Positions 24,881 to 38,626 of a DNA stretch of 38,626 bases are shown one piece after another. Each line of letters begins with the position of its first letter. Position 1 is the first letter of the stretch. This DNA comes from Blastococcus sp. (GTDB lineage Bacteria > Actinomycetota > Actinomycetes > Mycobacteriales > Geodermatophilaceae), in contig JAOPWM010000006.1 of assembly GCA_025965695.1 (NCBI GenBank), forward strand, positions 1-38,626, given 5' to 3'. The position numbers and the translations under genes are program-made. The notes beneath the pieces are model-generated. The model did no database searches. It was not told the DNA's origin and was given only the letters and a program-made list of their open reading frames with translations.

Positions 24881-25114
24881 GCCGTCGAGCCTGGCGCCGG
24901 GCGACGTCCGGACCCATCCCGCCGGCTGGTCGTTCGGGGTCGGGCCCGCCCGACTGTCGGCTGCTGGTCATCTCGGTCGCTGATGTTCCCGCACCGCCCC
25001 ACCGTGGTGTCCAGTTCCTTCACCCTTCCGGCCCCGACCGGGCGACCCGGGGCTCCCGAACTGTCGCCATCCTGTGGTGTGCTGACCGGCACATCGACCG
25101 GAGGAGTGGTCCAG
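24881..25114. other. Divergent intergenic region between kinase and sigma factor
   Basis: 234 bases holding the promoters of two divergent regulatory genes. It carries the ribosome site GGAGG before the sigma factor start. No operator, repeat or small gene could be recognised. Confidence 0.5.
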
Positions 25115-26098
25115 GTGACCAGCGTCGCCATCGGCCGGGCGGATCAACTCGATCCACGGCTGCTCGAGCACCGCCGTGAGCTGACCGGGTACTGCTACCG
25201 GATGCTCGGGTCGGCCTTCGACGCCGAAGATGCGGTGCAGGAGACCCTCGTGCGGGCCTGGCGCGGGCTCTCCGCATTCGAGGGCCGGTCGGCGCTGCGT
25301 TCGTGGCTGTACCGGATCGCCACCAACGTGTGCCTCGACCAGCTGTCGGGCCGCCAGCGCCGCGCCCTGCCGATGGACCTGTCCGGATCGTCGTGGCAGC
25401 CGGTCGAGCACTCTCTGGCCGCACGACGGCCCGGGACGGCGTGGGTCGAGCCGGTGCTCGACCGGCAGGTGATCCCCGAGGACGCCGATCCCGCCGAGCG
25501 GGCCGTCGCCAAGGAATCGATCCGACTGGCCTTCATCGCCGCGCTGCAGCACCTGCCGCCGCGCCAGCGCGCCGTCCTCATCCTCCGTGAGGTGCTGCGT
25601 TGGAAGGCCGACGAGGTCGCCCAGCTGCTCGACAGCACGGTCGCGTCGGTCAACAGCGCGCTGCAGCGGGCGCGCGCCACGCTGGCCTCCGTCGGGGGCG
25701 CGCCTGCACCCCGGGAACTGGACGCCGACGAAAGGGAGCTGCTCGCCCGGTATGTCGACGCCTTCGAGCGCTACGACATCGACGCGATCGTCCGGCTCCT
25801 GCACGACGACGCCACCCAGCACATGCCGCCCTACGAGATGTGGCTGCGCGGGGCGGGAGACATCGGTGCCTGGATGCTCGGCCCGGGGAAGGGCTGCCGG
25901 GGCTCGGTGCTGGTGCCGCTCGAGGCCAACGGTTCTCCCGCGTTCGCGCAGTACCGGCTGCGCGAGGGGGGTGGCCGCGAGCCGTGGGCCCTGCACGTTC
26001 TCGAGGTCGAGAACGGCCGGATCGCCCACATCTCGAGCTTCCTGGACCTCGACACCGGCCTGTTCCGGCTGCTGGGCCTGCCGGCCGTCCTCGACTGA
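25115..26098 (+). CDS. ECF RNA polymerase sigma factor with SnoaL-like C-terminal domain (SigG/SigX5 type)
   Basis: A 327-residue sigma-70 family protein. Region 2 spans about residues 12-80 (GYCYRMLGS, DAEDAVQETLVRAW, WLYRIATNVCLD), region 4 about 142-195 (ALQHLPPRQRAVLILREVL, then VASVNSALQRARATL), and a SnoaL-like domain fills the last 110 residues (YVDAFERYDIDAIVRLLHDD, MPPYEMWLRG). In this group the SnoaL tail, not an anti-sigma factor, is thought to regulate activity, which fits the absence of an anti-sigma gene nearby. GTG 25115 is preferred over upstream options because GGAGG lies about 12 bases before it and residues upstream are not conserved. A small VOC gene follows by 69 bases. 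Regulon unknown. Confidence 0.88.
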   Translation: MTSVAIGRADQLDPRLLEHRRELTGYCYRMLGSAFDAEDAVQETLVRAWRGLSAFEGRSALRSWLYRIATNVCLDQLSGRQRRALPMDLSGSSWQPVEHSLAARRPGTAWVEPVLDRQVIPEDADPAERAVAKESIRLAFIAALQHLPPRQRAVLILREVLRWKADEVAQLLDSTVASVNSALQRARATLASVGGAPAPRELDADERELLARYVDAFERYDIDAIVRLLHDDATQHMPPYEMWLRGAGDIGAWMLGPGKGCRGSVLVPLEANGSPAFAQYRLREGGGREPWALHVLEVENGRIAHISSFLDLDTGLFRLLGLPAVLD

Positions 26099-26167
26099 GC
26101 GCGGCCCGCCGATGAGTTCGGTGGCTCGGTGCGGTCATCAGTGCAGAACCGACCGAGAGGGGAACTC

Positions 26168-26548
26168 GTGCTCACCGACAGCCCGGCCTTCAGTGGCTTC
26201 TCCGTGGACGACGCGGACCGCGCCCGCAGCTTCTATGAGGAGACGCTGGGCCTACAGGTGGCGGCAGTCCCGGAGATGGGCGGACTCATGCGCCTGCGCC
26301 TGGGCGGCGGAACCGAGGTGCTCGTCTACGCAAAGACCGATCACGTCCCGGCGACGTTCACCGTGCTCAACTTCCCGGTCGCGGACATCGAGCAGGTCGT
26401 CGACGAGCTCAGCGGCCGCGGCGTCCGGTTCCAGCACTACGAGAACCCGCCCACCGACGAGAAGGGCATCATGCGCGCCGGCGGACCGCTGATCGCGTGG
26501 TTCACCGACCCCGCAGGGAACGTCTTCTCGGTGATGCAGCAGGACTGA
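26168..26548 (+). CDS. VOC family protein (glyoxalase/dioxygenase-like)
   Basis: A 126-residue vicinal-oxygen-chelate protein with two beta-alpha-beta-beta-beta modules: [22 protein letters not shown] at the N-terminus and [19 protein letters not shown] at the C-terminus. The usual metal His near the N-terminus is replaced (Ser/Val), so it may be a binding protein without enzymatic activity. GTG 26168 has GAGAGGGGAA immediately upstream. It follows the ECF sigma factor on the same strand and may be co-transcribed. Confidence 0.85.
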
Positions 26549-26554
26549 CCGAGG

Positions 26555-26935
26555 TCAGCCTCGAGGCGTTAGGGCAACCGGCTGGTGGGCGGGCTGGGGC
26601 GCTGCCGCCGAGGGTGCAGCTGCGGCCGGCGTTCCATCGTCCGCGGCTGCCCGCGGGACCGGGATGACCGGTGCCGGGGTGACGTCGCTCTTCAGCTTCT
26701 CCCCGCCGATGAAGGACGGCCCGTCGCCCCTGCCGAGCGTGCCGCCCGCGATCGCGAACAAGACCGTGACCAGCGAGGCCATCACCGAGACGGAGAGTTT
26801 CTCGCCCCAGTTCGTGTCGAGGAGGCCCGTGCCGGAAGCGGTCAGCAACGAAGCGAGCGACGCTGCGAACGAGCGGATCGCCCGCTCCAGGGTCGCGAGC
26901 AGGAATGCGCGTGAGAACAGACTCTGAACGGACAT
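26555..26935 (-). CDS. Orphan r1t-type phage holin with Ala/Pro-rich tail
   Basis: A 126-residue protein with two hydrophobic segments (about residues 20-33 and 48-66) separated by the short TGLLDTNWGEKLS turn, then GRGDGPSFIGGEKL. This two-helix layout matches r1t-like holins of actinobacteriophages, which perforate the membrane to release endolysin. The last 45 residues are Ala/Pro-rich and probably extracytoplasmic or disordered, longer than I recall for phage holins. No endolysin, portal or capsid gene is nearby. It may be a phage leftover or a domesticated membrane protein. It lies about 200 bases from the tRNA-Gly fragment that marks an integration boundary. Confidence 0.7.
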   Translation of the reverse strand: MSVQSLFSRAFLLATLERAIRSFAASLASLLTASGTGLLDTNWGEKLSVSVMASLVTVLFAIAGGTLGRGDGPSFIGGEKLKSDVTPAPVIPVPRAAADDGTPAAAAPSAAAPQPAHQPVALTPRG

Positions 26936-27139
26936 GACGCCGGCTTTCCCCAGACGGATGTGTCGCTGGAACGACTCCGTTCACCGCGCCGCGGGTACAG
27001 GCGGCGATGGACAGTGACCCGGCCCGTTCGCGTGTCGTCACTCAATGTCAGCGGCTCGTCACGCACCCCGGAAGCTGTCGGTGGTGACGTTCGGGGCGGT
27101 GAGCAGCCTGCGGGGGAGCAGGCCCGCCAGGGTTCGGAG

Positions 27140-27185
27140 AGCGGGTGACCGGGATCGAACCGGCATGGCCAGCTTGGAAGGGTGG
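27140..27185 (-). other. 3'-half fragment of tRNA-Gly(UCC): probable attachment-site remnant
   Basis: Reading the minus strand from 27185: anticodon arm 3' part with loop CTTCCAA (27174-27180; anticodon UCC), stem GCTGG, variable loop CCAT, T-arm GCCGG-TTCGATC-CCGGT (27148-27164), acceptor strand CACCCGC and discriminator T (27140). The 5' anticodon strand (CCACC) has one mismatch, and no D-arm or 5' acceptor strand follows, so this is not a complete gene. A conserved 3' half alone is the typical product of site-specific integration at a tRNA gene. The orientation predicts that the integrated DNA lies to the right (above 27185). Confidence 0.75.
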
Positions 27186-27584
27186 ATCCCTTGCGCCGTG
27201 TTTGCCCTGGTCAGGCGCCGAGTCGAGCGGAGGCCGTGCCTTTCGATTGCCTCACCTCCGCGCTCATGGCGGCGGCGGGAGCTGCATCTCACTCTGGTGG
27301 GCGCAGGCGAAAGGTCAGGTCGCGCCGGCGGCCGTGATGACCGGCCGGACCACCAACTGCGCGACCGACGACACCGTGGTCAGCGGCTCGGGTGCTGCAG
27401 TTCGTTGGCCTGAGCCCAGGGTTGAGAGGCGTCGCAGTGTCCTTGAAGGTGGCCTATGGGACACGAGCCAGGACAGATCAACCCAGTCCGACATCAGCTG
27501 CCTCTGCGGGTGCCGAGCGGCGTGATCGAGACCTGGGCCGATTGGCTGATTGCTTCCTAGAAGTGACGGGCATCATGCGGCGCG
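27186..27584. other. Gene-free stretch right of the tRNA fragment
   Basis: About 400 bases with no coding sequence that looks real; the open frames are Arg/Ser/Pro-rich shadows. Lower coding character than the surroundings. No integrase, repeat or promoter could be identified with confidence. The ATG of the next gene is at 27585. Confidence 0.5.
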
Positions 27585-28271
27585 ATGACGAACTTCGTCC
27601 TCGTCCCAGGTGGATTCGTCGGCGGCTGGTACTGGAGCGAGGTCGCCGACCGGCTGAGGAAGGCTGGGCATCGCGTCGAGGTCATCGAACAGCTACCGAG
27701 CGCTGGGACCGACCCGGCCGCACTCGGCGACCTGGCCGCCGACGCGGACGCCGTGAGGCAGGCCGTGGAGCGCGTCGGTGAACCCGTCGTCCTCGTCGGC
27801 CACTCCTATGGCGGGATGGTCATCACCGAACTCGCCGATCACCCCGCAGTCGCCCACAGCGTCTACCTCGCCGCGTTCTGGCCGCAGCGGGGGCAGTCGG
27901 CGATGGAGCTTCTCTCGTCGGGACCGCCGCCGACGTGGATGTCGCCGCACGAGGACGGAACGCTCAGGACCACCGACGACCTGGAGCAGCTCCGGCAGGC
28001 GCTGTGCGGCGACGTCGACCAGGAGCGCGCCTATGCCAACCTGCGTCGCTTCCTGCCACAGTCGATCGCCAGCGCTACCGACTCCAGCACCGCACCTGAC
28101 CGCGGCCACCCGACGACCTACATCATCTGCGAACAGGACCAGGCCCTTCCCCCCGTCGCCCAGGAGCAGATGGCCGCGGCGGCCGACCACCGTCACCGGC
28201 TGCAGTCATCCCATCAGCCCATGACATCGATGCCTGACGAGCTCGCCGAGGCCCTCGGTGGAGTTCACTGA
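27585..28271 (+). CDS. Alpha/beta hydrolase
   Basis: A 228-residue small alpha/beta hydrolase of the esterase/haloalkane-type fold without a cap insertion of note. The oxyanion region is VLVPGGFVGGWYW (5-17), the nucleophile elbow GHSYGG gives Ser74, and Asp185 (CEQDQAL) and His210 (SSHQPM) complete the triad. The fold resembles methyl-esterase-like hydrolases (PGG near the N-terminus). Cytosolic, no signal peptide. ATG 27585 has no strong ribosome site. It stands alone between the tRNA fragment and IS110 remnant, followed by a strong hairpin at 28361. Substrate unknown. Confidence 0.85.
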   Translation: MTNFVLVPGGFVGGWYWSEVADRLRKAGHRVEVIEQLPSAGTDPAALGDLAADADAVRQAVERVGEPVVLVGHSYGGMVITELADHPAVAHSVYLAAFWPQRGQSAMELLSSGPPPTWMSPHEDGTLRTTDDLEQLRQALCGDVDQERAYANLRRFLPQSIASATDSSTAPDRGHPTTYIICEQDQALPPVAQEQMAAAADHRHRLQSSHQPMTSMPDELAEALGGVH

Positions 28272-28360
28272 CTGGCGGAAGCCCGACGCGCGAACCCTGT
28301 CCCCAAGATTCTGTCGGAGCGCCGGGTCTGGCTCGGCCAGGTCGCCAGCCTCCAGGGAAA

Positions 28361-28394
28361 ATGCTGGTCGCATTGCGCAGCAATGCCCCAGCAT
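28361..28394. terminator. Two-stage hairpin downstream of the hydrolase
   Basis: ATGCTGG (28361-28367) pairs with CCAGCAT (28388-28394) and GCATTGC (28370-28376) with GCAATGC (28380-28386), around a 3-base loop and a small asymmetric bulge. It lies 90 bases after the hydrolase stop codon, so it may be a terminator or part of a degraded mobile element. Confidence 0.5.
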
Positions 28395-28788
28395 GCCGCC
28401 GTCTCGCCACGCTCGCATGACCGGTCACCTTCCATTTTCGGATTAGTGGGCCGCTCTCTATGAAGATGGGGGCCGCTGTCAATCGGTTCGTGAGTCAAGT
28501 TCCTGCTCTTCGGCGCCAAGGGCTGATCGCCGTCGGTGAGGAGCGGGTCCAGATGGAGCGCCCGCAGCCGCGTAGCGGCAAGGACGAACGATCTGGACGC
28601 GCGACGAGCCGGCGGCAGGCTGGCTGGCCTGCCGAAGAGAGTGGTCACCGCGGGCGCGGCCGCGGCCGGGGTGGGGAGCGGCCGGGCGTTTCGGGAGCCG
28701 GGCTCATCTCTCTATCGCCTCCTGGGGGGAGGACCAGGTCGGGCCGGAGGGGCTTCGCTTCGGTGGCGCATCTGGAGGGACGGGCCGT
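28395..28788. other. Gene-free stretch left of the IS110 remnant, possibly its 3' non-coding end
   Basis: About 390 bases without a supported gene. On the minus strand it carries TTGACA followed by CATCTTCATAG (about 28457-28485), resembling the tails of IS110-group elements as I recall them. No terminal inverted repeats could be seen. A 3' non-coding end of this type may once have encoded a bridge RNA, but none was recognised. Confidence 0.35.
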
Positions 28789-29535
28789 CTACGCGGCCAG
28801 AGCGGCATGTGTGGCGCCTGCCGGAGCGAAGGGCTTGTTGGTGGTGAGCATGTACCAGATCGCCTCGGTGAGCCTGCGGGCGATGTCCACGCGGGCGACC
28901 GAGGGGCCGCGCTGGCGGCCCAGCCGGGTCTTGGTGCGCTGGTAGAGGGCGGCGTAGACCGGGTGCCGGGCGGCGTGGGTGGTCGCCTCGATCAGTGCCC
29001 AGCGCAGGTACTTCGGGCCGTTCTTGGCCAGCGAGCCGCGCCAGTCGTGGCCGCCGGACTGATCGACCGCGGGGCACAGTCCGGTGTAGCCGATCAGCTT
29101 CTTCGGCGTCGGAACCGGGTGATGTCGCCGAGCTCGGCGGCGATGGTGTAGCCGAGCACCCACCCGATCCCGGGTGCGGTCATCAACGTCGGCACGTAGG
29201 CATGGGTGGCGCCCTCGCGCGCAACGCGGCCTCGCAGTCGTCGATCTCGGCGCCGAGGATGTCGATCAGCCGCAGCGCGGCGACCACGTCACCGGCCCAC
29301 GGCTCGGGCAACCCCAGCCCGTCGAGCAACCGGCGGCCGGCCACCCCGAACAGATCGCTGACCGGGCACGGGTGACCGAAGGCCAGCAGCGTGGAGTGGA
29401 TCCGGTTCTTCAACGCGGTGCGGTGGCGCACCAGATGCAACCGCCAGCGGGCCCGTTCCCGGCTGGCGCGCACCCCTGGGCCCGGCAGTCAGATCGCCGG
29501 CACCAGATGCGCGGCTCTCACCGGCGCATATGTGG
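28789..29535 (-). mobile_element. Decayed IS110-family transposase remnant
   Basis: Minus-strand pieces of an IS110 transposase: HLVRHRTALKNRIHSTLLAF and FGVAGRRLLDGLGLPEPW (about 29470-29320), PTLMTAPGIGWVLGYTIAAELGDITRF (about 29195-29112, split by frame changes), then the Transposase_20 core KKLIGYTGLCPAVDQSGG, GPKYLRWALIEA and IDIARRLTEAIWYML (29100-28855). Lesions: TGA at 29489-29491 where Trp is expected, one-base losses near 29211-29222 and 29108-29113, and absence of the N-terminal DEDD catalytic part. The element is therefore dead. The ends could not be defined. No intact copy is in the window. Confidence 0.85.
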
Positions 29536-29620
29536 GTGAACGGAGACGGACAAGACGCGCCCGGGTCCGGCTGACGTGGCCCGTGATGGCGGAGAACAGT
29601 GCCAAGAGCCGAGGATGCCA

Positions 29621-29633
29621 GGACCTTCCGCCC
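29621..29633 (+). promoter_or_regulatory. Candidate operator upstream of slipin (GGACCTTCCGCCC)
   Basis: A 13-base imperfect dyad 80 bases before the slipin ATG. It resembles the GGGAC-TT-CCC core bound by DosR in mycobacteria, and a near copy (11 of 13 bases) occurs at 30588-30600. No DosR gene is in the window, so function is speculative. Confidence 0.3.
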
Positions 29634-29712
29634 TGATCCCGGAGCTCCGGAGCCGCGCACACTCGGGCAAGGCCCCGTCCGGACGCCTCAAGAACTTCGT
29701 TGTGAGGCACTC

Positions 29713-30573
29713 ATGACCACGTTGCTCACCGTCGCCATCGTCGTCGCTGTCGTCCTGATCGCGATGGCCCTCTCGCTGCGGATCATCAAGCAGTACGAGC
29801 AGGGCGTGCTCTTCCGCTTCGGCCGGGTACTGGCCGTCCGCGAGCCGGGGCTGCGGTTCATCATCCCGTTGGTCGACGTGCTGCACCGCGTCTCGCTGCG
29901 GATAGTGACGATGCCGATCCAGTCCCAGGGGATCATCACCCGGGACAACGTGAGCGTCGACGTGTCCGCGGTCGCCTACTTCCGGGTGCTCGACGCCACT
30001 AAGTCCGTCGTCGCCATCGAGAACGTCCGCGCCGCGATCGACCAGATCGCCCAGACCACACTGCGCAAGCAGGTCGGGCAGCACACGCTGGACGAGACGT
30101 TGTCCGAAACCGACCGGATCAACCTGGACATCCGCGCGAACCTCGACGTCGCCACCGAGGCGTGGGGCGTGGAGGTCACCCTGGTGGAACTCAAGGACAT
30201 CCAGCGCCCCGACAGCATGAAGCGCGCCATGGCCCGCCAGGCAGAGGCCGAGCGGGAGAAGCGGGCCAAGATCATCAACGCCGAGGGCGAGTCGCTGGCG
30301 GCAGCAGCACTCGGCGAGGCCTCAGACATCATGGCGGCCCACCCGCTGGCCCTCCAGCTGCGCAACCTGCAGAGCCTGGTGGAGATCGGGGTCGACCGGA
30401 ACACGACCGTCGTCTTCCCGGCGCCGTTGATGAGCACGATCGGTGAGATCGGTGCCTTCCTGGCCAAGGAGACGGCTGCTGCCGGCGCGTTGCCGCCCGC
30501 TCCCGCGATCCAGGCCGGTGCGCGCATCGACGCCCCGAACGGCGGCCGGCCAGCGGCGCCACAGCACAACTGA
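29713..30573 (+). CDS. Slipin family protein (SPFH/band 7, stomatin-like)
   Basis: A 286-residue membrane-anchored band-7 protein. One N-terminal helix (about residues 3-21) is followed by the SPFH domain ([60 protein letters not shown]), a short coiled coil rich in Ala/Glu ([18 protein letters not shown]) and a Pro/Ala-rich tail. Slipins organise membrane microdomains and often accompany a NfeD-type partner; none is present here. ATG 29713 is chosen since it starts the helix; residues before it (39 codons) are not conserved. It leads the slipin-ATPase pair (81-base gap, same strand). Confidence 0.93.
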
Positions 30574-30587
30574 GCTCCGCCCTCGGA

Positions 30588-30600
30588 GGACTCTCCGCCC
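30588..30600 (+). promoter_or_regulatory. Candidate operator upstream of cation ATPase (GGACTCTCCGCCC)
   Basis: Differs from the 29621 motif at two positions and lies 55 bases before the ATPase start codon. The shared placement in front of two stress-type genes is the only evidence. Confidence 0.25.
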
Positions 30601-30654
30601 AGGTGCGATTCACCCGGCACCGCTCGATACGAACCCCGCGGAAAAGGAACAACT

Positions 30655-33321
30655 GTGTCCGCACCGACCCTGCCGCCGCCGGCGGACCCCACTGTCGCAG
30701 CGCCGCTCCTCGATTCGCGCGAACCGGTCGCCCGGTTGTTGCGGGACCTCGACTCCCAGCCCTCCGGGCTCTCCGGTCGGGAGGCGGCGCGGCGACTCGA
30801 GCGGTACGGGCCCAACGCGCTCACCGTCGGCCACCACCGCACGTGGCCACGCGCACTGGTCCGCCAGTTCACCCATCCGCTCGCGGTCCTGCTGCTGCTG
30901 GCCGCGGTGCTCGCCGTGGTCGCCGGAACGCCGGAGGTGGCCTGGGCGATCCTGGCCGTCGTCGTCCTCAACGCGGTGTTCTCCTTCGTCCAAGAGCGCC
31001 AGGCCGGCCGTGCGGTCGAGGCGCTGGGCCGGTTCCTGCCACCGCAGGCGCAGGTCCGCCGGGACGGTGTCGTGCGGTCGGTGCCGGCCACCGAGGTGGT
31101 CCCTGGCGACGTCCTGGTGCTGGCCGAAGGTGACCGGGTGCCGGCCGACGCACGGTTGCTGTCGGGCGGGCTGGAGATCGACGCGTCCGCGCTGAGCGGG
31201 GAGTCCGCGCCGGTGGAGCGGGTGGCCGACGCCGTCGACGATGCCGGTCACCCGCTGGACTCCCCGGTGCTGGTCTTCAGCGGTACCGGGTGCGTCGGTG
31301 GTGCCGCCGAGGCCGTCGTCCACAGCACCGGTGCGCGCACCGAGATCGGCCGCATCGCCGCGCTGACGGGGCCGCGGCCGCAGGGCAACAGCCCGCTGGA
31401 ACGCCAGGTGCGCCGGGTGGCCTACCTCATCGCGGCCGTCGCCGTCGGGGTGGGCATCGCCTTCCTGCCACTCGGCGTCTACGCCGGGCTGAGCTGGCCG
31501 GAGGCGTTCGTCTTCGCCGTCGGCCTGCTCGTGGCCAACGTGCCGGAGGGCCTGTTGCCCACCATCACCCTCGCCCTGGCCGGCGGGGTGCGGTCCATGG
31601 CCAAGCGTGGCGCGCTGGTGAAGCGGCTCTCGGCGGTGGAGACGCTTGGGTCGATCACCGTCATCTGCACCGACAAGACGGGGACGCTGACGGCCAACGC
31701 GATGCACGTGCAGGAGGTGCGCGACGTCCGCGGTGCGCTGCTGGCCGCCCCGTCCCCGGAGCTGGCCGACGCGGTCAGCCGCTGCAACACTGCGGACGCC
31801 GGTGCCCGCACGGGCGACCCGACGGAGCTGGCGCTGCTGGACATGGCCATCGCCGCCGGCATCCGGCTGGACCCAGCGGTGCGGAACGCGGAACGGGTGG
31901 CGCTGTTCTCGTTCGACCCGCGCCGCCGGCTGATGGCCACCCTCGACCACGAGGGCGCGGACCTGCAGGTGCACGTCAAAGGCGCACCGGAGGCACTGCT
32001 GCCGCTCTGCGTCACTCACGCGGCGCAGGCCGACGCCCTCGCCGGCGCGGTGGAGGAGATGACCAGCCAGGGCCTGCGGGTGCTGGCCGTGGCCCGACGG
32101 AGCTGGACCGACCCGGTCGCCCCCGACCGGGACTCCGCGGAGGGCGCCGGGCTGACGCTGCTCGGACTGGTCGGCCTGCTCGACCCGCCCCGTCCCGAGG
32201 TCGCCGCAGCCGTCGCAGCCTGCCACGCGTCGGGGATCCGCATCCACGTCGTGACCGGGGACAACGGCCGGACGGCCACCGAGATCGCCCGCCGGGTCGG
32301 GATCCACGCCGACCGGGTCATCGACGGTGCCACCCTCGACGGGCTCACCGACGGCCAGCTCGACGAGCTGCTTGCCGGGGACGAGGAGTTCGTGTTCTCC
32401 CGGGCGGCCCCGGAGGCGAAGCTGCGCATCGCGGACGCGCTGCGCGCCAGCGGCAACGTCGTGGCCATGACCGGGGACGGCGTCAACGACGCACCGGCGC
32501 TGCACCACGCCGACGTCGGGGTGGCCATGGGCCGTGGCGGTACCGAGGTGGCGCGCGAGGCCGCGGCCGTCGTCCTCACCGACGACAACTTCGCCACCGT
32601 GGTGGCCGGGGTCGAGGAGGGCCGGCGGGTCTATGACAACGTCCGCAAGTTCGTGCTCTACATCTTCGCCCACGCCGTGCCCGAGGTCGTGCCGTTCCTG
32701 GTGTTCGCGCTGTCCGGCGGGCTCGTGCCGCTACCCCTGACCGTGCTGTCCATCCTCGCGATCGACCTGGGCACCGAGACGCTGCCCGCCCTGGCCCTGG
32801 GCCGGGAGCCGGCCGAACCGGGCCTGATGGCCCGGCCACCCCGCAAGCAGAGCCAGAGCGTCATCGACAAGGCGATGCTCTTACGCGCCTGGGGGCTGAT
32901 GGGCCTCCTCTCGGCGGCGCTGTCCATGGGCCTGTTCTTCCTGGTACTGACCCGCGCAGGCTGGACCCCCGGTGCTCCCACCGGCAGCGGCACCCCGCTG
33001 CACGACGCCTACCTGCAGGCCACTACCGCCACCTTCGCCGCGATCGTGGCCTGCCAGATCGGCACCGCGTTCGCCGCCCGGACCCAGCACAGCTCGCTGC
33101 GCGCCATCGGCCTCTGGAGCAACCCCCTGCTGCTGGCCGGCATCGCCTTCGAGCTGCTGTTCGCGGGCGCGGTGATCTACCTGCCGCCGCTGCAGACGGT
33201 CTTCGGCACCGCAGCCCTGCCGGGCTGGGTCCTCGCCCTGCTCATCCCCATGCCGCTGCTGGTGTGGGGGCTGGACGAGGCCTACCGCGCCCTGCGCCGC
33301 AACCTCAGCGGCGGCCACTGA
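30655..33321 (+). CDS. P2-type cation-transporting ATPase (CtpF/Ca2+- or Na+/K+-like)
   Basis: An 888-residue P-type ATPase moving a cation across the plasma membrane. The N-terminal cation ATPase domain begins near residue 25 ([17 protein letters not shown]); helices 1-2 follow, the actuator loop has the SGES motif, helix 4 contains [16 protein letters not shown] (the PEGL signature of P2 pumps), the phosphorylated Asp340 lies in CTDKTGT, KGAPE is the nucleotide-binding loop and [11 protein letters not shown] (606-616) the hinge; helices 5-10 close the chain. There is no heavy-metal Cys domain. The closest recalled relative is mycobacterial CtpF, a DosR-regulated pump. GTG 30655 has GGAAAAGGAAC upstream. 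Ion specificity is not determined. Confidence 0.93.
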
Positions 33322-33600
33322 CCTCGTACGTCGTCCTCGGGGAGCCGCTCCGGCGCAGGGTCCGCCCGTGCAGCCAACCGATGAGCACCAGCAGTGGCAG
33401 GTGGACCGCCGGCAGGTTTCGGGCGAACCAGGTGGGCAGGTAGATGTCGGTGACCGATCCGCTGCCGGCGCCGGCGGCCTCGGCCAGCCCGGTCATCGGG
33501 CAGCGGAACCCGTCGGCCTTGAAGACCAGGCACTCGCCGGCGACGACCGCCGCGGCGACACCGGCCCGCCGATCACTGCGGCCGGTCGCCGGCGAGCCGG
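33305..33600 (-). pseudogene. 3' remnant of a small membrane protein gene, 5' end lost
   Basis: The minus-strand reading from about 33560 gives one hydrophobic start (GVAAAVVAGECLVF), then KADGFRCPMTGLAEAAGAG, SVTDIYLPTWFARNLPAVHLPLLVLIGWLHGRTL. This looks like the C-terminal half of an uncharacterised four-helix membrane protein (it resembles small membrane proteins that carry an FRCP-type loop). It has no start codon in a sensible place; the sequence above 33600 on this strand is non-conserved. The stop codon overlaps the end of the ATPase gene by 17 bases. It abuts a 5'-truncated glycosyltransferase. Confidence 0.5.
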
Positions 33601-34292
33601 GGGGACTACCGGCAGTTGGGGGACACCGTCGACCTGGTGGCCATCTCGCGTGCTCAACGCCGCGCAGCCCCCGACCTGTCGTGGCTGGGTACCGTCTACA
33701 ACGCGGTCGACGTCGAGTCCTTGCCCTATCGGGCGGCAAAGGAGGAAATGCTGCTCTTCCTCGGCCGGCTGCACCCGGACAAGGGCGTGCACCTGGCTAT
33801 CGACGCCGCCCGACGCGTAGGACTGCCGATCGTGGTGGCCGGGAAGTGCTCGGACCCGATGTCACGATCTTCGGCACCGCCGACGCCACCCAGAAGCGCG
33901 ACCTGCTGTCCCGCGCCGCCGCGCCGGTGTTTCCCATCGTCTGGGACGAGCCGTCCGGGATGGCCATGATCGAAGCCATGGCGTGCGGCACGCCGGTGGT
34001 GGCGCTGCGCCGGGGATCGGTGCCCGAGGTCGTCGTCGACGGGGTCACAGGCGTGCTCTGTGACGACCCGGTGGAGTTGCCAGCGGCGATCGCGGCAGCC
34101 CGCCGGCTGGCGCCGGCGGGCTGCCGGTAGCACGTCCGGAGCCGCTTCGACGTCGACACGATGATCGCGGGCTATGAAGCGCTATACCGCAAGGCCCTCG
34201 TCAGTCGAACGCCGACGCGCCATGACGACGTCCGCCTGCCCGGCGGGCGACGAGGCGCCTGGGCGCCGGTCGCCACGGGGACCGCGGCCTGA
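33601..34292 (+). pseudogene. Glycosyltransferase (GT4) remnant, truncated and frameshifted
   Basis: Pieces of a GT4 glycosyltransferase: TVDLVAISRAQRRAAPDLSW, VYNAVDVESLPYRAAKEE and LLFLGRLHPDKGVHLAID (33622-33810), then AGKC followed directly by LGPDVTIFGTADATQKRDLL in another frame (33850), EPSGMAMIEAMACGTPVVALRRGSVPEVV (to about 34050), a premature TAG at 34128-34130 and a residual FDVDTMIAGYEALYRKAL. The N-terminal acceptor domain (about 100 residues) is missing, an internal stretch is deleted, and the stop codon is premature, so it is non-functional. It starts at the junction with the membrane-protein remnant. Confidence 0.85.
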
Positions 34293-34581
34293 CCCCTTGG
34301 GGAGGCCGGCGTCGACGGAAAGCCCGCTCAGCCACCACCGCGACCGCGGGGATGAGGGCGGCGATGCTGGACCAGCGCCCCATCTGCGCCGATAGGGTGC
34401 CTGCTTCAGCCATTCCTCGGGCTGCGCCGACCCGCCGCCTGACTCAAGGAGCACGCTGGGACCCCTTCGCACAGCAGTTGCGGTCAGGACGGACGTTCCG
34501 ACCCGCAGCAATTTCGTCCCTGTGGGCGCTCCTGTCGGCAGGGCAGCGGGGAACTCTGGAACCGAATACGAGGAGACGCGA

Positions 34582-35097
34582 ATGATCGAGGTCTGCGAGA
34601 CCGTGAACATCGACGGAGGAGTGCTCGTCGGGCACGACGGATCGGAGTGCGCCCAGGAGGCGCTGGCCTGGGCGGCGGGGCTGGCCGGCCGGGCGGGGCT
34701 GGAGCTGCACGTGGTCCGTGCGTGGGGCCTGACCACCGCGCCGCGGCCGGCCGCGTGGGAACCCGGATTCGTGCCGCCGATGACGGATTACGAGCAGGCG
34801 GTCCGCGACGAGCTGGACGCCCACGTGGCGGGTGCCGCGCTCGAACCATCGGTGCGGGTGCGCACTCACGTACTGCACCGGCCGCCGGTCAAGGGGCTGA
34901 TCGATGCGGCGAAGAGGGTGGACCTGCTGGTCGTGGGCGCGCGAGGTCTCGGGGGCTTCACCGGCCTGCTTCTCGGCTCAGTGAGCGACCAGTGCGTGCA
35001 CCACGCGCCCTGCCCGGTGACCGTGGTGCGAACCGGTGCCGGCAGGCCGCTGCCACTCGTCGCCGCAGTGACGATGGATTCCGCCGCCCGGGGGTGA
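34582..35097 (+). CDS. Universal stress protein (ATP-binding UspA domain)
   Basis: A 171-residue single UspA domain. The N-terminal strand ILVGHDGSECAQEAL is visible as VLVGHDGSE, and the ATP-binding signature GARGLGGFTGLLLGSVS gives the exact G-2x-G-9x-G-S pattern, so ATP binding is expected. In actinobacteria such proteins accumulate in hypoxia and stationary phase. ATG 34582 has GAGGAG upstream (34569-34574); the frame extends 20 codons further without conservation. It is convergent with the small membrane protein gene, and between the ATPase and acetate kinase genes. Two-domain Usp forms exist; this one has a single domain plus a short tail. Confidence 0.9.
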   Translation: MIEVCETVNIDGGVLVGHDGSECAQEALAWAAGLAGRAGLELHVVRAWGLTTAPRPAAWEPGFVPPMTDYEQAVRDELDAHVAGAALEPSVRVRTHVLHRPPVKGLIDAAKRVDLLVVGARGLGGFTGLLLGSVSDQCVHHAPCPVTVVRTGAGRPLPLVAAVTMDSAARG

Positions 35098-35183
35098 CCG
35101 CAGGCGGTCACGCCCGATCAGCGGTGGTCGCCGGTGCACCCGCGGCAATGCTTGGTGACTCCTCGGTGGTCGGTGCCGCTGCT

Positions 35184-35654
35184 TCACTCCTCCGGCTCGG
35201 CGGCGAGGACGCACACCGTCACGCCGACCAGTGCGAAGACCGCTTCGAGAGGCTGGAAACCCATCCATGCCAGTTCGGCGAGCTCGAAGCACACGAGTCC
35301 GAGCCCCGCTACCAGGGACAACTCGCGTGCGTGCCGGCCGCGGCGCCACTCCCACGTTCCGGCTGCGGTGAAACCGCCGCCGACCAGGGTCGCCAGCAGG
35401 AGGCCGGGTAGGCGCCAGTCGGGAAATGGACTGCCTGCTAGTGCGACCACAGGTGCATGAAGCAGGGAACCGTCTGGTCGGGCGGCGAGCAGGACTCCTC
35501 CGACCACGGCGGCGGTAGCTGTCCCGAGCTCGAGGCCGATCAACAGACGCAGCCGACCGGCTCGTGGGGCAACTCCGTCCGCGGTGTTGCCGTCGCTCGT
35601 CCAACGGGCGGCACGTATCGGCGCCACCGTTCCCGTCTCGTCGAGCTCAGCCAT
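35184..35654 (-). CDS. Small four-helix membrane protein, unknown function
   Basis: A 156-residue protein with about four hydrophobic segments: LLIGLELGTATAAVVGGVLLAA, LPGLLLATLVGGGFTAAGTW, LSLVAGLGLVCFELAELAWM and EAVFALVGVTVCVLAA. The 30-residue N-terminus is polar. ATG 35654 is chosen; an upstream ATG in frame (35669) is possible. The start overlaps the acetate kinase stop by 8 bases, so it is the last gene of the phosphoketolase-acetate kinase operon. I do not recognise the family. Confidence 0.7.
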   Translation of the reverse strand: MAELDETGTVAPIRAARWTSDGNTADGVAPRAGRLRLLIGLELGTATAAVVGGVLLAARPDGSLLHAPVVALAGSPFPDWRLPGLLLATLVGGGFTAAGTWEWRRGRHARELSLVAGLGLVCFELAELAWMGFQPLEAVFALVGVTVCVLAAEPEE

Positions 35655-36753
35655 GCACGACCACGCCATCTATCAGGGCGCCGGCGAGCAGTCGTCTGGT
35701 CTGGCGGTCCATCACCCGTTCCTCGTCGGCGGTGACCACCACGGTCCGCACCGGGGCACCCGGCGCACTGACGTCCCCCGGCACGGGAGCCACGCCGTCC
35801 GTGACCACCCCGAGGTGCCTGAGCCGGCTGGTGACCGCGTCCCGGACCGGGGCCGAGTGCTCGCCGATCCCGCCGGTGAACACCAGGGTGTCCAGCCCGC
35901 CGAGCACGGCGGTGTAGCCGGCCACTCCTATCGCGACGGAAGTCGTGAACACCTCTAGGGCCAGCTTGCAGTCCCGGTCGCCGACGGCGGCCCGGCGAGT
36001 CAACTCGGCGACGTCGGTCAGTCCACCGCTCATCCCGGCCAGACCCGAGGAACGGTCGACCAGCCCGCGCAGGTCCGTGGTGGACCACCCCCGGTCGGCC
36101 AGGAACAGCAGCACCTCGGGGTCGAGGTCGCCGCTGCGACTGGCCGAGGGCAGGCCGCCGGTGGGGGAGAAGCTCATGGATGTCCTCACTGAGAGCCCCC
36201 CGCGCACGGCGGTGATGCTGCAGCCGCCGCCGAGGTGGGCGACCACCGCGCGCCCGAGCCCTGGGACGGTGTCCACGACGTGCTGCACCGACAGGCCGTG
36301 GAAGCCGTAGCGGCGGATCCCCAGGGCCATGACCGCATCGGGTAGCGGCAGTCGGTGCGCGGCCGGTGACAGGGTGGCGTGGAAGGCGGTGTCGAAGCAC
36401 GCCACGTGCGGCAGGTCGGGCCAGCGGGCCCGGGCGGCGTCGATCGAGTCCAGGTCACCCGGCAGGTGCAGCGGGGCGAAGTCCACAAGTGCGCGGAGCG
36501 CGGCCACAAATTCGTCGTCGACCCGCTCGGGCTGGACGTGGACCGGCCCACCGTGCACCACCCGGTGCGCCACCGCCGACGGCGTCAACCCGGCCGCCGC
36601 CAGTCGCTCGACGACATCGGCGATCGCGCTGCCGACGTCGGCGGTCGGACGGGGTACGTGACGGTCGAACAGCCGCGCGCCCGAGGCGTCGTGGGCCGCC
36701 ACCTTCAGCGACCGTGACCCCGGGTTGATCGCGAGGATGACCGGCCCAATCAC
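35647..36753 (-). CDS. ackA: Acetate kinase
   Basis: A 368-residue acetate kinase (ASKHA fold) making acetate and ATP from acetyl phosphate. Motifs: NPGSRSLK (10-17), HRVVHGG, FDTAFHATL, HLGGGCSITAV, SGDLDPEVLLFL and GGIGEHSAPVR. The first motif is usually N-x-G-S-S-S-x-K, so Ser is replaced by Arg at one position; with the short length (about 400 is usual) this marks a divergent but complete subfamily. GTG 36753 overlaps the phosphoketolase stop codon (GTGA), a near-obligate pairing because phosphoketolase makes its substrate. No pta gene is present. Confidence 0.93.
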   Translation of the reverse strand: MIGPVILAINPGSRSLKVAAHDASGARLFDRHVPRPTADVGSAIADVVERLAAAGLTPSAVAHRVVHGGPVHVQPERVDDEFVAALRALVDFAPLHLPGDLDSIDAARARWPDLPHVACFDTAFHATLSPAAHRLPLPDAVMALGIRRYGFHGLSVQHVVDTVPGLGRAVVAHLGGGCSITAVRGGLSVRTSMSFSPTGGLPSASRSGDLDPEVLLFLADRGWSTTDLRGLVDRSSGLAGMSGGLTDVAELTRRAAVGDRDCKLALEVFTTSVAIGVAGYTAVLGGLDTLVFTGGIGEHSAPVRDAVTSRLRHLGVVTDGVAPVPGDVSAPGAPVRTVVVTADEERVMDRQTRRLLAGALIDGVVVHG

Positions 36754-38626
36754 CCCGACCAGCGCCAGTTCCGCACCTCGGGCATGTCCTCGAAGTGCTC
36801 TCGGATGTAGCCGTGGTGCCGATCGAGCATCTGCCGGCAGTGCGCGGCCAACTCCTCGCCGCCCTGGGGAACACGGCGCGCGTGCCGGAGTGCGTCGAGG
36901 GCCAGGTGGTAACGGCTCATCCGGTTCAGCACGACCATGTCGAACGGCGTGGTCGTCGTCCCCTGTTCCTCGAAGCCGCGCACGTGGAAGCGCGCGGCAC
37001 CGGGACGCCCGTGCAGCAACTGATGCACCGCCCGCGGATAGCCGTGGAAGGCGAACACGACGTCGGCGTCATCGGTGAACAGCCGGCGGAAGTGCTCGGA
37101 AGTGAACCCGTGCGGGTGCACGTCCGGCGGTAGGAGCGCCATCAGGTCGACGACGTTGACCATGCGGACGCGCAACCAGGGCACCCACTGCCGCAGCAGT
37201 TCAGCAGCGGCGAGCACCTCCATGGTGGGCACGTCGCCGGCAGCAGCCAGGACCACGTCCGGCTCGTCGAGCTGGTCGGACTCCGTCCCCGCCCACTCCC
37301 ACACCGAAGCTCCGGCGGCGCAGTGCGCGGCGGCCTCGGTCATCGTCAGGTACTGCAGATGCGACTGCTTGTCGGCCACCACCAGATTGACGTGGTCGAC
37401 ACTGCGCAGGCAGTGGTCGGCGACCGACAGAAGGCAATTGGCGTCCGGCGGCAGCCACACGCGGACGACGGCCGGTGACAGTGGAATCACCGTGTCGATC
37501 AGCCCGGGACCCTGGTGGCTGAAGCCGTTGTGGTCGTTGCGCCAGCAAGTACTGGTCAGCAGGATCGTCAGGGAGGACACCGGCGCGCGCCAGGGCAGCT
37601 CGGTGGCGTGTTGCAGCCACTTGACGTGCTGGATCACCATCGACGCGCTGACCATGGCGAACGCCTCATAGGTGGCGAACAGCCCGTGCCGCCCGGACAG
37701 CAGGTAGCCCTCCAGCCAGCCCTCGCAGAGGTGCTCGGACAGCACCTCCATCACCCGGCCGTGCGGTGACACCGCGTCGTCGGTCGGCAGCACCTCGGCC
37801 TGCAGGCAGCGGTCGGTCACCTCGAAGACCGACTGCAGCCGGTTGCTGGCCGTCTCGTCGGGACAGAACAGCCGGAAGTCACCTCCGCCGTCCGCGGTCG
37901 TCGTCCGCCGGTACACCTCGGCCAGGAGCTCACCCAGCGGATGCGTCGTCTCGTGCGACGTCGTCCCGGGCGAGGGGATGTCGAGCGCGTAGCCGTCGAG
38001 CGCGGGTAGGTCCAGCGGACGACGCAGCCGGCCGCCATTGGCGTAGGGCGTCGACCCCATCCGGAGGTCGCCCTCAGGAGCGAGGGCGGCGAGCTCGGGT
38101 GCCAGCGCACCCGTGGCGGTGAACTGGAGCTCGGGGGAGTAGGAACGCAGCCAGACCTCGAGCAGGGCCAGGTGCGCGTCGTCGGTCTGAACGCCGGACA
38201 AGGGGACCTGGTGGGCCCGGAACGTGCCCTCCACCTGTACACCGTCGACGACGGCCGGCCCGGTCCAGCCCTTCGGCGTGCGCAGCACGATCGCCGGCCA
38301 GCCTGGGCGGGCGTCGGTGCCTCCGGCGCGGGCCGCGCGTTGGATTTCGGTGATCCGGTCGTGCGCGCGCCGCAGTGCGGCCTCCAGGTCCGTGAAGACC
38401 AGCCGCGGGTCGTCGCCGGACACCACCACCGGGGCCCAGCCCTGGCTGGCCAGGTAGGCGCATACTTCCGCGTCCGACGACCGGCCCCACACGGAGGCAC
38501 TGCTGATCTTGTAGCCGTTGAGGTGCAGGACGGGAAGGACGGCGCCGTCGCGGCGGGCGTCGAGGTAGGCGGGGATCTTCCAGGACCCGGACAGCGGCCC
38601 CGTCTCGGCCTCGCCGTCGCCGACGA
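36750..38626 (-). CDS. xfp: Xylulose-5-phosphate/fructose-6-phosphate phosphoketolase, 5' end beyond window
   Basis: A thiamine-diphosphate enzyme splitting xylulose-5-P or fructose-6-P into acetyl phosphate plus glyceraldehyde-3-P or erythrose-4-P. About 625 of roughly 800 residues are visible. The frame is open to the right edge and begins VGDGEAETGPLSGSWK, HLNGYKI (the TPP-binding GDG and the phosphoketolase loop), so the real start is outside the window; the GTG at 38492 is not the true start. Further motifs: PKGWTGP, RNDHNGFSHQGPGLID and FHGYPRAVHQLLHGRPG. The stop overlaps the ackA start (GTGA). Phosphoketolase plus acetate kinase gives ATP without the electron transport chain, useful under low oxygen. 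Confidence 0.95.
   Translation of the reverse strand, partial: VGDGEAETGPLSGSWKIPAYLDARRDGAVLPVLHLNGYKISSASVWGRSSDAEVCAYLASQGWAPVVVSGDDPRLVFTDLEAALRRAHDRITEIQRAARAGGTDARPGWPAIVLRTPKGWTGPAVVDGVQVEGTFRAHQVPLSGVQTDDAHLALLEVWLRSYSPELQFTATGALAPELAALAPEGDLRMGSTPYANGGRLRRPLDLPALDGYALDIPSPGTTSHETTHPLGELLAEVYRRTTTADGGGDFRLFCPDETASNRLQSVFEVTDRCLQAEVLPTDDAVSPHGRVMEVLSEHLCEGWLEGYLLSGRHGLFATYEAFAMVSASMVIQHVKWLQHATELPWRAPVSSLTILLTSTCWRNDHNGFSHQGPGLIDTVIPLSPAVVRVWLPPDANCLLSVADHCLRSVDHVNLVVADKQSHLQYLTMTEAAAHCAAGASVWEWAGTESDQLDEPDVVLAAAGDVPTMEVLAAAELLRQWVPWLRVRMVNVVDLMALLPPDVHPHGFTSEHFRRLFTDDADVVFAFHGYPRAVHQLLHGRPGAARFHVRGFEEQGTTTTPFDMVVLNRMSRYHLALDALRHARRVPQGGEELAAHCRQMLDRHHGYIREHFEDMPEVRNWRWSG

Follow-up and report, generated by a model that had tools for sequence, protein, structure and literature searches.

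Integron cassette arrays consist of successive units that lack an integrase, with a recombination site between one unit and the next, and integrons are recognised by their own tyrosine integrase and by folded attC sites. In actinomycetes the integrative and conjugative elements termed AICEs (actinomycete ICEs) are recognised by integrase, replication and FtsK-type transfer genes. CIMEs (cis-mobilisable elements) are defined by two attachment sites without recombination or transfer genes, their excision or transfer depending on the enzyme of a neighbour. They and their tandem accretion were reportedly treated by Pavlovic in 2004, a work cited in PMC3218068, in connection with ICESt1-related elements. 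The closest array that we have seen described is that of the ssrA islands of Dehalococcoides, which lie in tandem downstream of one RNA gene and are bounded by repeats of its 3' end (PMC3146451). There, conserved bases stand beside these repeats, and both accretion and elements without integration genes are discussed (PMC3146451).

We analysed a stretch of 38,626 nucleotides from a Blastococcus draft genome (the window, throughout), which contains the 3' half of a tRNA-Gly(UCC) gene. This fragment is very probably the chromosome-side, attR-type copy left by site-specific integration into the tRNA-Gly(UCC) gene, at a place where, on the best reading, CIME-like islands accreted in tandem. The earlier note on this DNA had attributed the duplicated 3' half to integration at a tRNA gene, and this is supported by an exact second copy, an empty site in a relative, a constant side and strand and a shared arm signature. 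Anatomically the locus is a tRNA-gene island, which is a known kind; what is new is the breadth of the phenomenon in this family and the pattern of an arm type with no integrase detected within 2 kb upstream. We found no description of such islands for Geodermatophilaceae in our searches of open-access literature, most subscription papers lying outside it.

The tRNA-Gly(UCC) half copy and its complete counterpart

The fragment is read on the minus strand from 27180 to 27140, beginning with the anticodon loop CTTCCAA (UCC) and passing through the 3' anticodon stem, variable loop and T-arm to the acceptor 3' strand of a tRNA-Gly.

27140 to 27180, minus strand: predicted distal attachment-site copy (attR type), the tRNA-Gly(UCC) 3' half from anticodon loop to discriminator (41/41 identity, 46/47 with flanks)

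The T-arm, variable loop, anticodon loop and acceptor 3' strand that the earlier note had called intact can be read directly in the sequence. Its wording needs qualifying for the anticodon arm, where the loop is intact but the 5' side of the stem is altered. A 5' half had been said to be missing, and ARAGORN reported 0 tRNA genes and Rfam 0 matches at the gathering score in the window; therefore no 5' tRNA half is detected there.

All 41 bases are identical to positions 2949-2989 of contig C15 of the same draft genome (G000), within a complete tRNA-Gly(TCC) gene at C15:2946-3019 on the minus strand. Extended into the flanks, the match covers 46 of 47 bases (27139-27185, E 9e-17), its sole mismatch falling in the 5' strand of the anticodon stem, where the window has CCACC and the complete gene CCAGC. 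The 41-mer has two sites in the 4.09-Mb draft genome (317 contigs, 81.5% complete) at up to 3 mismatches, the window and the C15 tRNA, and both are exact. The backwards control of this search gave 0 matches in the same genome, and a chance tRNA-like sequence is rejected on the comparison of two exact copies with none. An identical 3' half, which the earlier note had proposed to look for elsewhere in the genome, was thus found inside a complete tRNA-Gly(UCC). That note had also expected an integrase near the full minus-strand gene; the gene is there, on C15, but the window, C15 and C85 (a contig considered below) yielded no integrase. Similarly, a complete gene, predicted to lie beyond 38626, does exist, but on a separate contig of 4.5 kb, which is consistent with that position.

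The left flank and the direction of the inserted DNA

Four features lie to the left of the fragment.

24983 to 26098, plus strand: ECF-type sigma factor with SnoaL domain (Pfam), the chromosomal anchor; 30 of 41 genomes match it at E<=1e-60
26099 to 27139, no strand: chromosomal DNA flanking the original tRNA gene on its downstream side; first bases CTCTCC, as against CTCCA in element-borne copies
26129 to 26548, plus strand: glyoxalase-family protein (PF00903), chromosomal flank; adjoins the sigma gene in several relatives
26555 to 26935, minus strand: small holin-like membrane protein (PF16945, E 9e-15), chromosomal flank

A comparison of 18 proteins of the window against 38 stretches from relatives (E<=1e-10) showed the left-flank genes recurring near the site, and the order of the left-hand genes (sigma factor, glyoxalase, acetyltransferase, rpiB and peptidase among them) is preserved in relatives. 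The glyoxalase gene lies on the same side of the site in relatives, and homologues of the holin-like protein are found between site and sigma gene in genomes G007 and G009 and beside the sigma gene in G001. Among named relatives, the best match to the sigma protein (93%) comes from Blastococcus. On the right, a single reading frame of 10, the glycosyltransferase, recurs at the same threshold, in one of the 38 stretches; the same right flank in all relatives, which by the earlier note would have refuted its reading, is consequently not seen.

An empty site is found in G018, a member of another genus of the same family, in which a complete tRNA-Gly(UCC) lies less than 50 bp from the sigma gene (48 bp from the tRNA core to the matched part of the gene, 15 bp to its reading frame). 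The window and the end of this tRNA have 48 of 49 bases in common (27137-27185), and in both the tRNA is followed by CTC without CCA, whereas most other copies carry CCA. In Modestobacter excelsi (locus L196) the sigma gene stands 1.76 kb from a complete tRNA that likewise has no CCA. In the 10 genomes with complete tRNA and sigma gene on one contig, the two are 0.05, 5.3, 8.2, 9.1, 13.4, 17.1, 23.8, 28.4, 31.2 and 56.8 kb apart.

We collected 80 named sigma-gene loci and set aside 22 as belonging to other families. Among the remaining 58, 21 had sites, and all 23 of these sites share the window's side and strand relative to the sigma gene. The other 37 loci had no site within reach, which may reflect larger islands, divergent sites (9 mismatches were allowed) or short contigs. 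A search of all 80 loci with a site model built from 26 sites, the window's included, gave 28 matches, every one on the minus strand.

The possibility of foreign DNA on the left was considered and rejected: relatives preserve the left-hand gene order, and the empty site lies directly beside the sigma gene. We place the inserted DNA to the right of 27186 because of the empty site, the constant side and strand, and the arm signature beyond the fragment. These comparisons support a left flank of syntenic chromosome and inserted DNA extending rightwards, the direction that the earlier note had predicted and on which G018 and the 23 sites, on the predicted side and strand, agree. Partial tRNA copies do arise in genomes by other routes, but an origin of the fragment as a pseudogene, by chance or by duplication and unconnected with integration, is scarcely credible beside a uniform position at all 23 sites, the arms and the empty site.

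The element-end arm

Immediately to the right of the fragment lies a repeat-bearing sequence that recurs at other copies of the site.

27186 to 27263, minus strand: arm at the element end (P arm), carrying the direct repeat AGGCA-n-AAAGGCAC (27252-27236) and CTGACCAG (27214-27207)

A profile of 32 other arms, the window's having been removed, matches 27262-27185 with 22.9 bits (bias 10.3) and E 3.9e-6; the profile that includes the window copy (locus L115) scores 33.2 bits. This is the sole match at E<=1 in the window, C85 and C15 together, and the reversed window gave no match to the profile. The shared arm stands before many copies and has the form AGGCAC-n-AAGGCAC, some 20 bases ahead of CTGACCAGC; after many copies there is a second arm, TGACCAGC with an inverted GTGCCT. 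The direct repeat (up to 2 mismatches) is present in 23 of the 32 arms as against 2 of 2000 random 90-mers, and the CTGACCAGC motif (up to 1 mismatch) in 25 of 32 as against 91 of 2000. By analogy with known tyrosine integrases, we infer that these repeats would serve as integrase arm sites.

Cargo genes and contig joins

The remainder of the window, to the right of the arm, contains eight features.

27585 to 28271, plus strand: alpha/beta hydrolase (PF12697, E 1.5e-25), island cargo
28789 to 29163, minus strand: truncated IS110-type transposase remnant (PF02371, residues 17-68)
29599 to 30573, plus strand: slipin/SPFH protein (PF01145, E 2.3e-38), island cargo; 90% identical protein in G001:C253
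30655 to 33321, plus strand: P-type cation ATPase (PF00122, PF00689), island cargo; 93% identical in G001:C253
33444 to 34130, plus strand: glycosyltransferase fragment (PF13692); homologue inside the G013 island (L089)
34522 to 35097, plus strand: universal stress protein (PF00582), island cargo
35647 to 36753, minus strand: acetate kinase (PF00871), island cargo
36750 to 38626, minus strand: phosphoketolase (XFP domains), 5' end cut by the contig end, in-frame continuation on C85

From the SPFH gene onward the DNA matches contig C253 of G001 in three colinear pieces (91, 79 and 88%), and no core copy was found in the 20 kb of that contig examined. The colinear block (29599-38626 and locus L104) comprises the SPFH, cation ATPase, glycosyltransferase, universal stress protein, acetate kinase and phosphoketolase genes, and presumably resembles a low-oxygen survival module of the kind in DosR-type regulons. 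The hydrolase and IS110 remnant (27585-29163) have no match in those otherwise colinear 20 kb. The right-flank DNA has homologues in 40 of 41 genomes, for the most part at other places in the genome; therefore the cargo genes are common and it is their place that varies. G015 has the acetate kinase/phosphoketolase pair on a contig with copies of the site, with the sigma gene about 60 kb on. With the foreign side settled, we can regard the block of acetate kinase, phosphoketolase, ATPase and stress protein as cargo of an island in this genome.

The phosphoketolase gene also leads out of the window. The last 93 bases of the window (38534-38626) are exactly those of C85:1-93, and the phosphoketolase frame stays open across the overlap; therefore the inserted DNA probably extends into C85, by as much as 30.8 kb more. 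The same 93 bases open contig C88 of G006, another draft genome of the genus (G006:C88:1-93), and the shared stretch is an assembly-graph break point. The join is likely, not certain, because G006:C88 begins in the same way. With as many as 12 mismatches allowed, no other core copy is found on C85, and an element reaching the window would for that reason exceed 40 kb, if C85 is the continuation.

C15 overlaps neither C85 nor the window; the sole overlap among the three contigs is that of C85 with the window contig, C91. The bases that follow the complete tRNA on C15 differ from the TGACCAGC-type second arm, and this element end instead matches that of G017 (284 bp, 75%) and G007:C34 (606 bp, 65%). 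Upstream of the tRNA, the sole match between C15 and the relatives' stretches is to a histidine-kinase paralogue (67-68%). Because the C15 end and the window end differ in arm type, the region probably comprises several elements; as judged from sequence, the two ends seen in this genome probably belong to different tandem elements.

With a draft of 317 contigs, unlinked contigs and a 93-bp end overlap shared with G006, it might be asked whether C91 or C15 is a chimera or does not belong to the bin. We consider such an artefact very improbable. In G005, core and arm are likewise contiguous (116 bp, 79%), and 651 bp of the left flank (79%) lie 0.9 kb away on the same side.

Breadth in the family and tandem arrays

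The Geodermatophilaceae are often isolated from desert soil and stone. A pattern search of 112 genomes of the family, which counts complete and half copies together, found the core at up to 3 mismatches in 96, with at least two copies in 61, and it is on the latter count that the tRNA-Gly(UCC) gene can be called an integration hotspot in this family. In the wider set the core is present in 26 of 41 genomes. The relatives' stretches first examined yielded 42 sorted copies, 20 of them complete genes and 22 half copies.

In places the copies form tandem arrays. In G009, four intervals measuring 4.2-13.1 kb come after the complete tRNA, an arm of the AAGGCAC type standing at the end of each, and 8 of the 10 proteins scanned in this array have Pfam domains. 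Among the stretches compared, there were just two cases of a unit shared between species. At L068:7466-11909 (G012) and L080:13182-17629 (G009), in two different species, units of about 4.4 kb between half-site copies have four homologous frames: a response regulator, its neighbour, a DUF6326 protein and a 77-aa protein. In G009 (L078) and G016 (L095) the first 5 kb after the core hold a frame of about 1640 residues preceded by a small frame, and the latter is found after the site in G008 (L087) too.

A second group of tRNA-Gly half copies lies about 140-200 kb upstream of the complete tRNA, on the same strand, in G009 (C1:1466947, 1497837 and 1522718) and G007 (C11:106594, 125018 and 150364; L071-L073 and L076-L078 for the two genomes together). 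The first remote copy is in both genomes preceded by similar non-tRNA sequence, as though a secondary attachment site or a rearrangement had played a part. Copies with the T-arm variant GCGGGTTCGATTCCCGT occur at L106:3076 and L108:331 (G015:C9), in G064 and in other genomes of the pattern search; two sequence versions of the site therefore circulate in the family.

Integrases at the site

There is no PF00589 integrase on the window, C85 or C15, the genome's five PF00589 matches being on other contigs. An integrase profile likewise matched nothing in the window, and the 11.4 kb to the right of the fragment are without an integrase, in an island that is partly unassembled. Three of the five PF00589 proteins were compared with the site-linked integrase family, the two short ones on C100 and C108 being left out, and the best of the three is 37-40% identical to that family over most of its own length.

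At other copies of the site integrases do occur. On the element side of the core, integrase frames end 69-130 bp away at L094, L096 (cut by a contig end), L165, L194 and L203. Those of L094, L165 and L194, at 82-130 bp from the site, and that of L181, within its island, are 58-86% identical to one another. The L203 integrase has 31-35% identity to these four, and therefore more than one integrase lineage uses the site. The integrase profile that found the five frames near the core also recognised decayed pieces in L081.

These observations bear on an alternative account, in which a single ordinary integrase-bearing island (ICE, IME or prophage) would span C15 and the window, its integrase unassembled and the difference between its arms due to divergence. 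Such an island does exist at the same tRNA in G017, where a 14.6-kb interval has a 375-aa integrase beside the distal copy, and it is to this element end that the C15 end is homologous over 284 bp (75%). Set against this, the window has arm repeats where L094, L096, L165, L194 and L203 have an integrase 69-130 bp from the core, the integrase profile matches nothing in the window, and 0 of the 6 sites with an upstream integrase have the window's arm type. We regard a single island as possible, but doubtful.

The last of these counts comes from a comparison of half-site copies by arm type, in which one of 39 was dropped because the contig ended within its arm. An integrase within 2 kb upstream was found at 0 of 24 AAGGCAC-type ends, the window included and four of these sites having less than 2 kb to search (97, 138, 1354 and 1580 bases), as against 6 of 14 other ends; the latter figure counts, for the distal L165 site, an integrase beyond a second site, and more strictly it is 5 of 13. 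The L108 arm, classed among the others, looks like a worn AAGGCAC arm, and the count covers the upstream side only, L081 and L097 (both AAGGCAC type) having integrase pieces downstream. The Fisher value for arm type and integrase (0.001) is only a guide because the sites are related.

Intervals between sites give a similar picture. Neighbouring sites on one contig enclose 12 intervals in six genomes (G009 six, G007 two, and G012, G010, G006 and G017 one each), and just one of these, that of G017, has a PF00589 match; G015, the named loci and the stretches of about 141 kb (G009) and 152 kb (G007) from the outlying copies to the complete tRNA, with one PF00589 match each, are omitted from this count. 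Serine recombinases (PF00239) gave 12 matches in 7 of 11 genomes, none in the site intervals or between tRNA and sigma gene.

Another possibility is an integron-like cassette array, in which a recombinase encoded elsewhere captures and shuffles integrase-less circles carrying the tRNA-Gly half-site and arms. The four G009 intervals of 4.2-13.1 kb with AAGGCAC-type ends, and with Pfam domains in 8 of 10 scanned proteins, would fit such an array, as would the 11 of 12 intervals without a PF00589 match, the want of any of the 12 PF00239 matches (11 genomes) in site intervals or islands, and the 0 of 24 AAGGCAC-type ends with an integrase within 2 kb upstream. However, no recombinase is tied to the AAGGCAC arms, the loss of integrases by decay gives the same pattern, the downstream integrase pieces at the AAGGCAC-type sites L081 and L097 lie in the next element, and only two units were shared across species among the stretches compared. 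We think a cassette array unlikely, and it is likewise unlikely that the Geodermatophilaceae half-site with AAGGCAC/TGACCAG arms is the exchange unit of a trans-acting cassette system. If it were, integrase-less modules of about 4-30 kb, in tandem and in one orientation with their recombinase off the array, would amount to integron-like storage at a tRNA gene.

A proposed mechanism

Tandem accretion by site-specific integration, the reading that we prefer, would proceed as follows. A tyrosine recombinase would cross over in the anticodon stem-loop CCAGC-CTTCCAA-GCTGG. The incoming element's own 3' half, carrying CCA, would rebuild the tRNA, and the original 3' half, without CCA, would be pushed to the far end, beside the holin-like, glyoxalase and sigma flank. 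Repeated integration events would produce the tandem arrays. The last element in the window has the AAGGCAC/TGACCAG arm type, which is common at element ends with no integrase detected nearby; because such arms occur in that setting, this element was probably mobilised in trans, or moved by CIME-like accretion with an integrase-bearing neighbour. The SPFH protein, cation ATPase, universal stress protein, acetate kinase and phosphoketolase on the right are cargo. If integrase-less, arm-bearing units do move, they would offer a clean model for the in-trans mobilisation of cargo-only islands.

Comparison with known systems

The locus shares with the islands and ICEs that tyrosine recombinases insert at tRNA 3' ends an exact duplication of the 3' half from the anticodon loop onwards, conserved flanks around variable cargo, and a complete gene at one end with a half copy at the other, although here the two ends are on separate contigs. 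It differs from them in that no integrase was found in the window element and in the many tandem copies present in some relatives. The Dehalococcoides ssrA islands involve a serine recombinase and a 20-bp repeat, whereas here the repeat is a 41-bp tRNA-Gly half and tyrosine integrases stand at some of the sites. Integron arrays differ in turn, in that the present recombination site is a tRNA half-site with arms and the units are of about 4-30 kb. With CIMEs the locus would have in common attachment sites without a recombination module, in tandem at one site, mobilisation being in our case predicted; it departs from them in that the window's arm type is not the one found on integrase-bearing elements at this tRNA.
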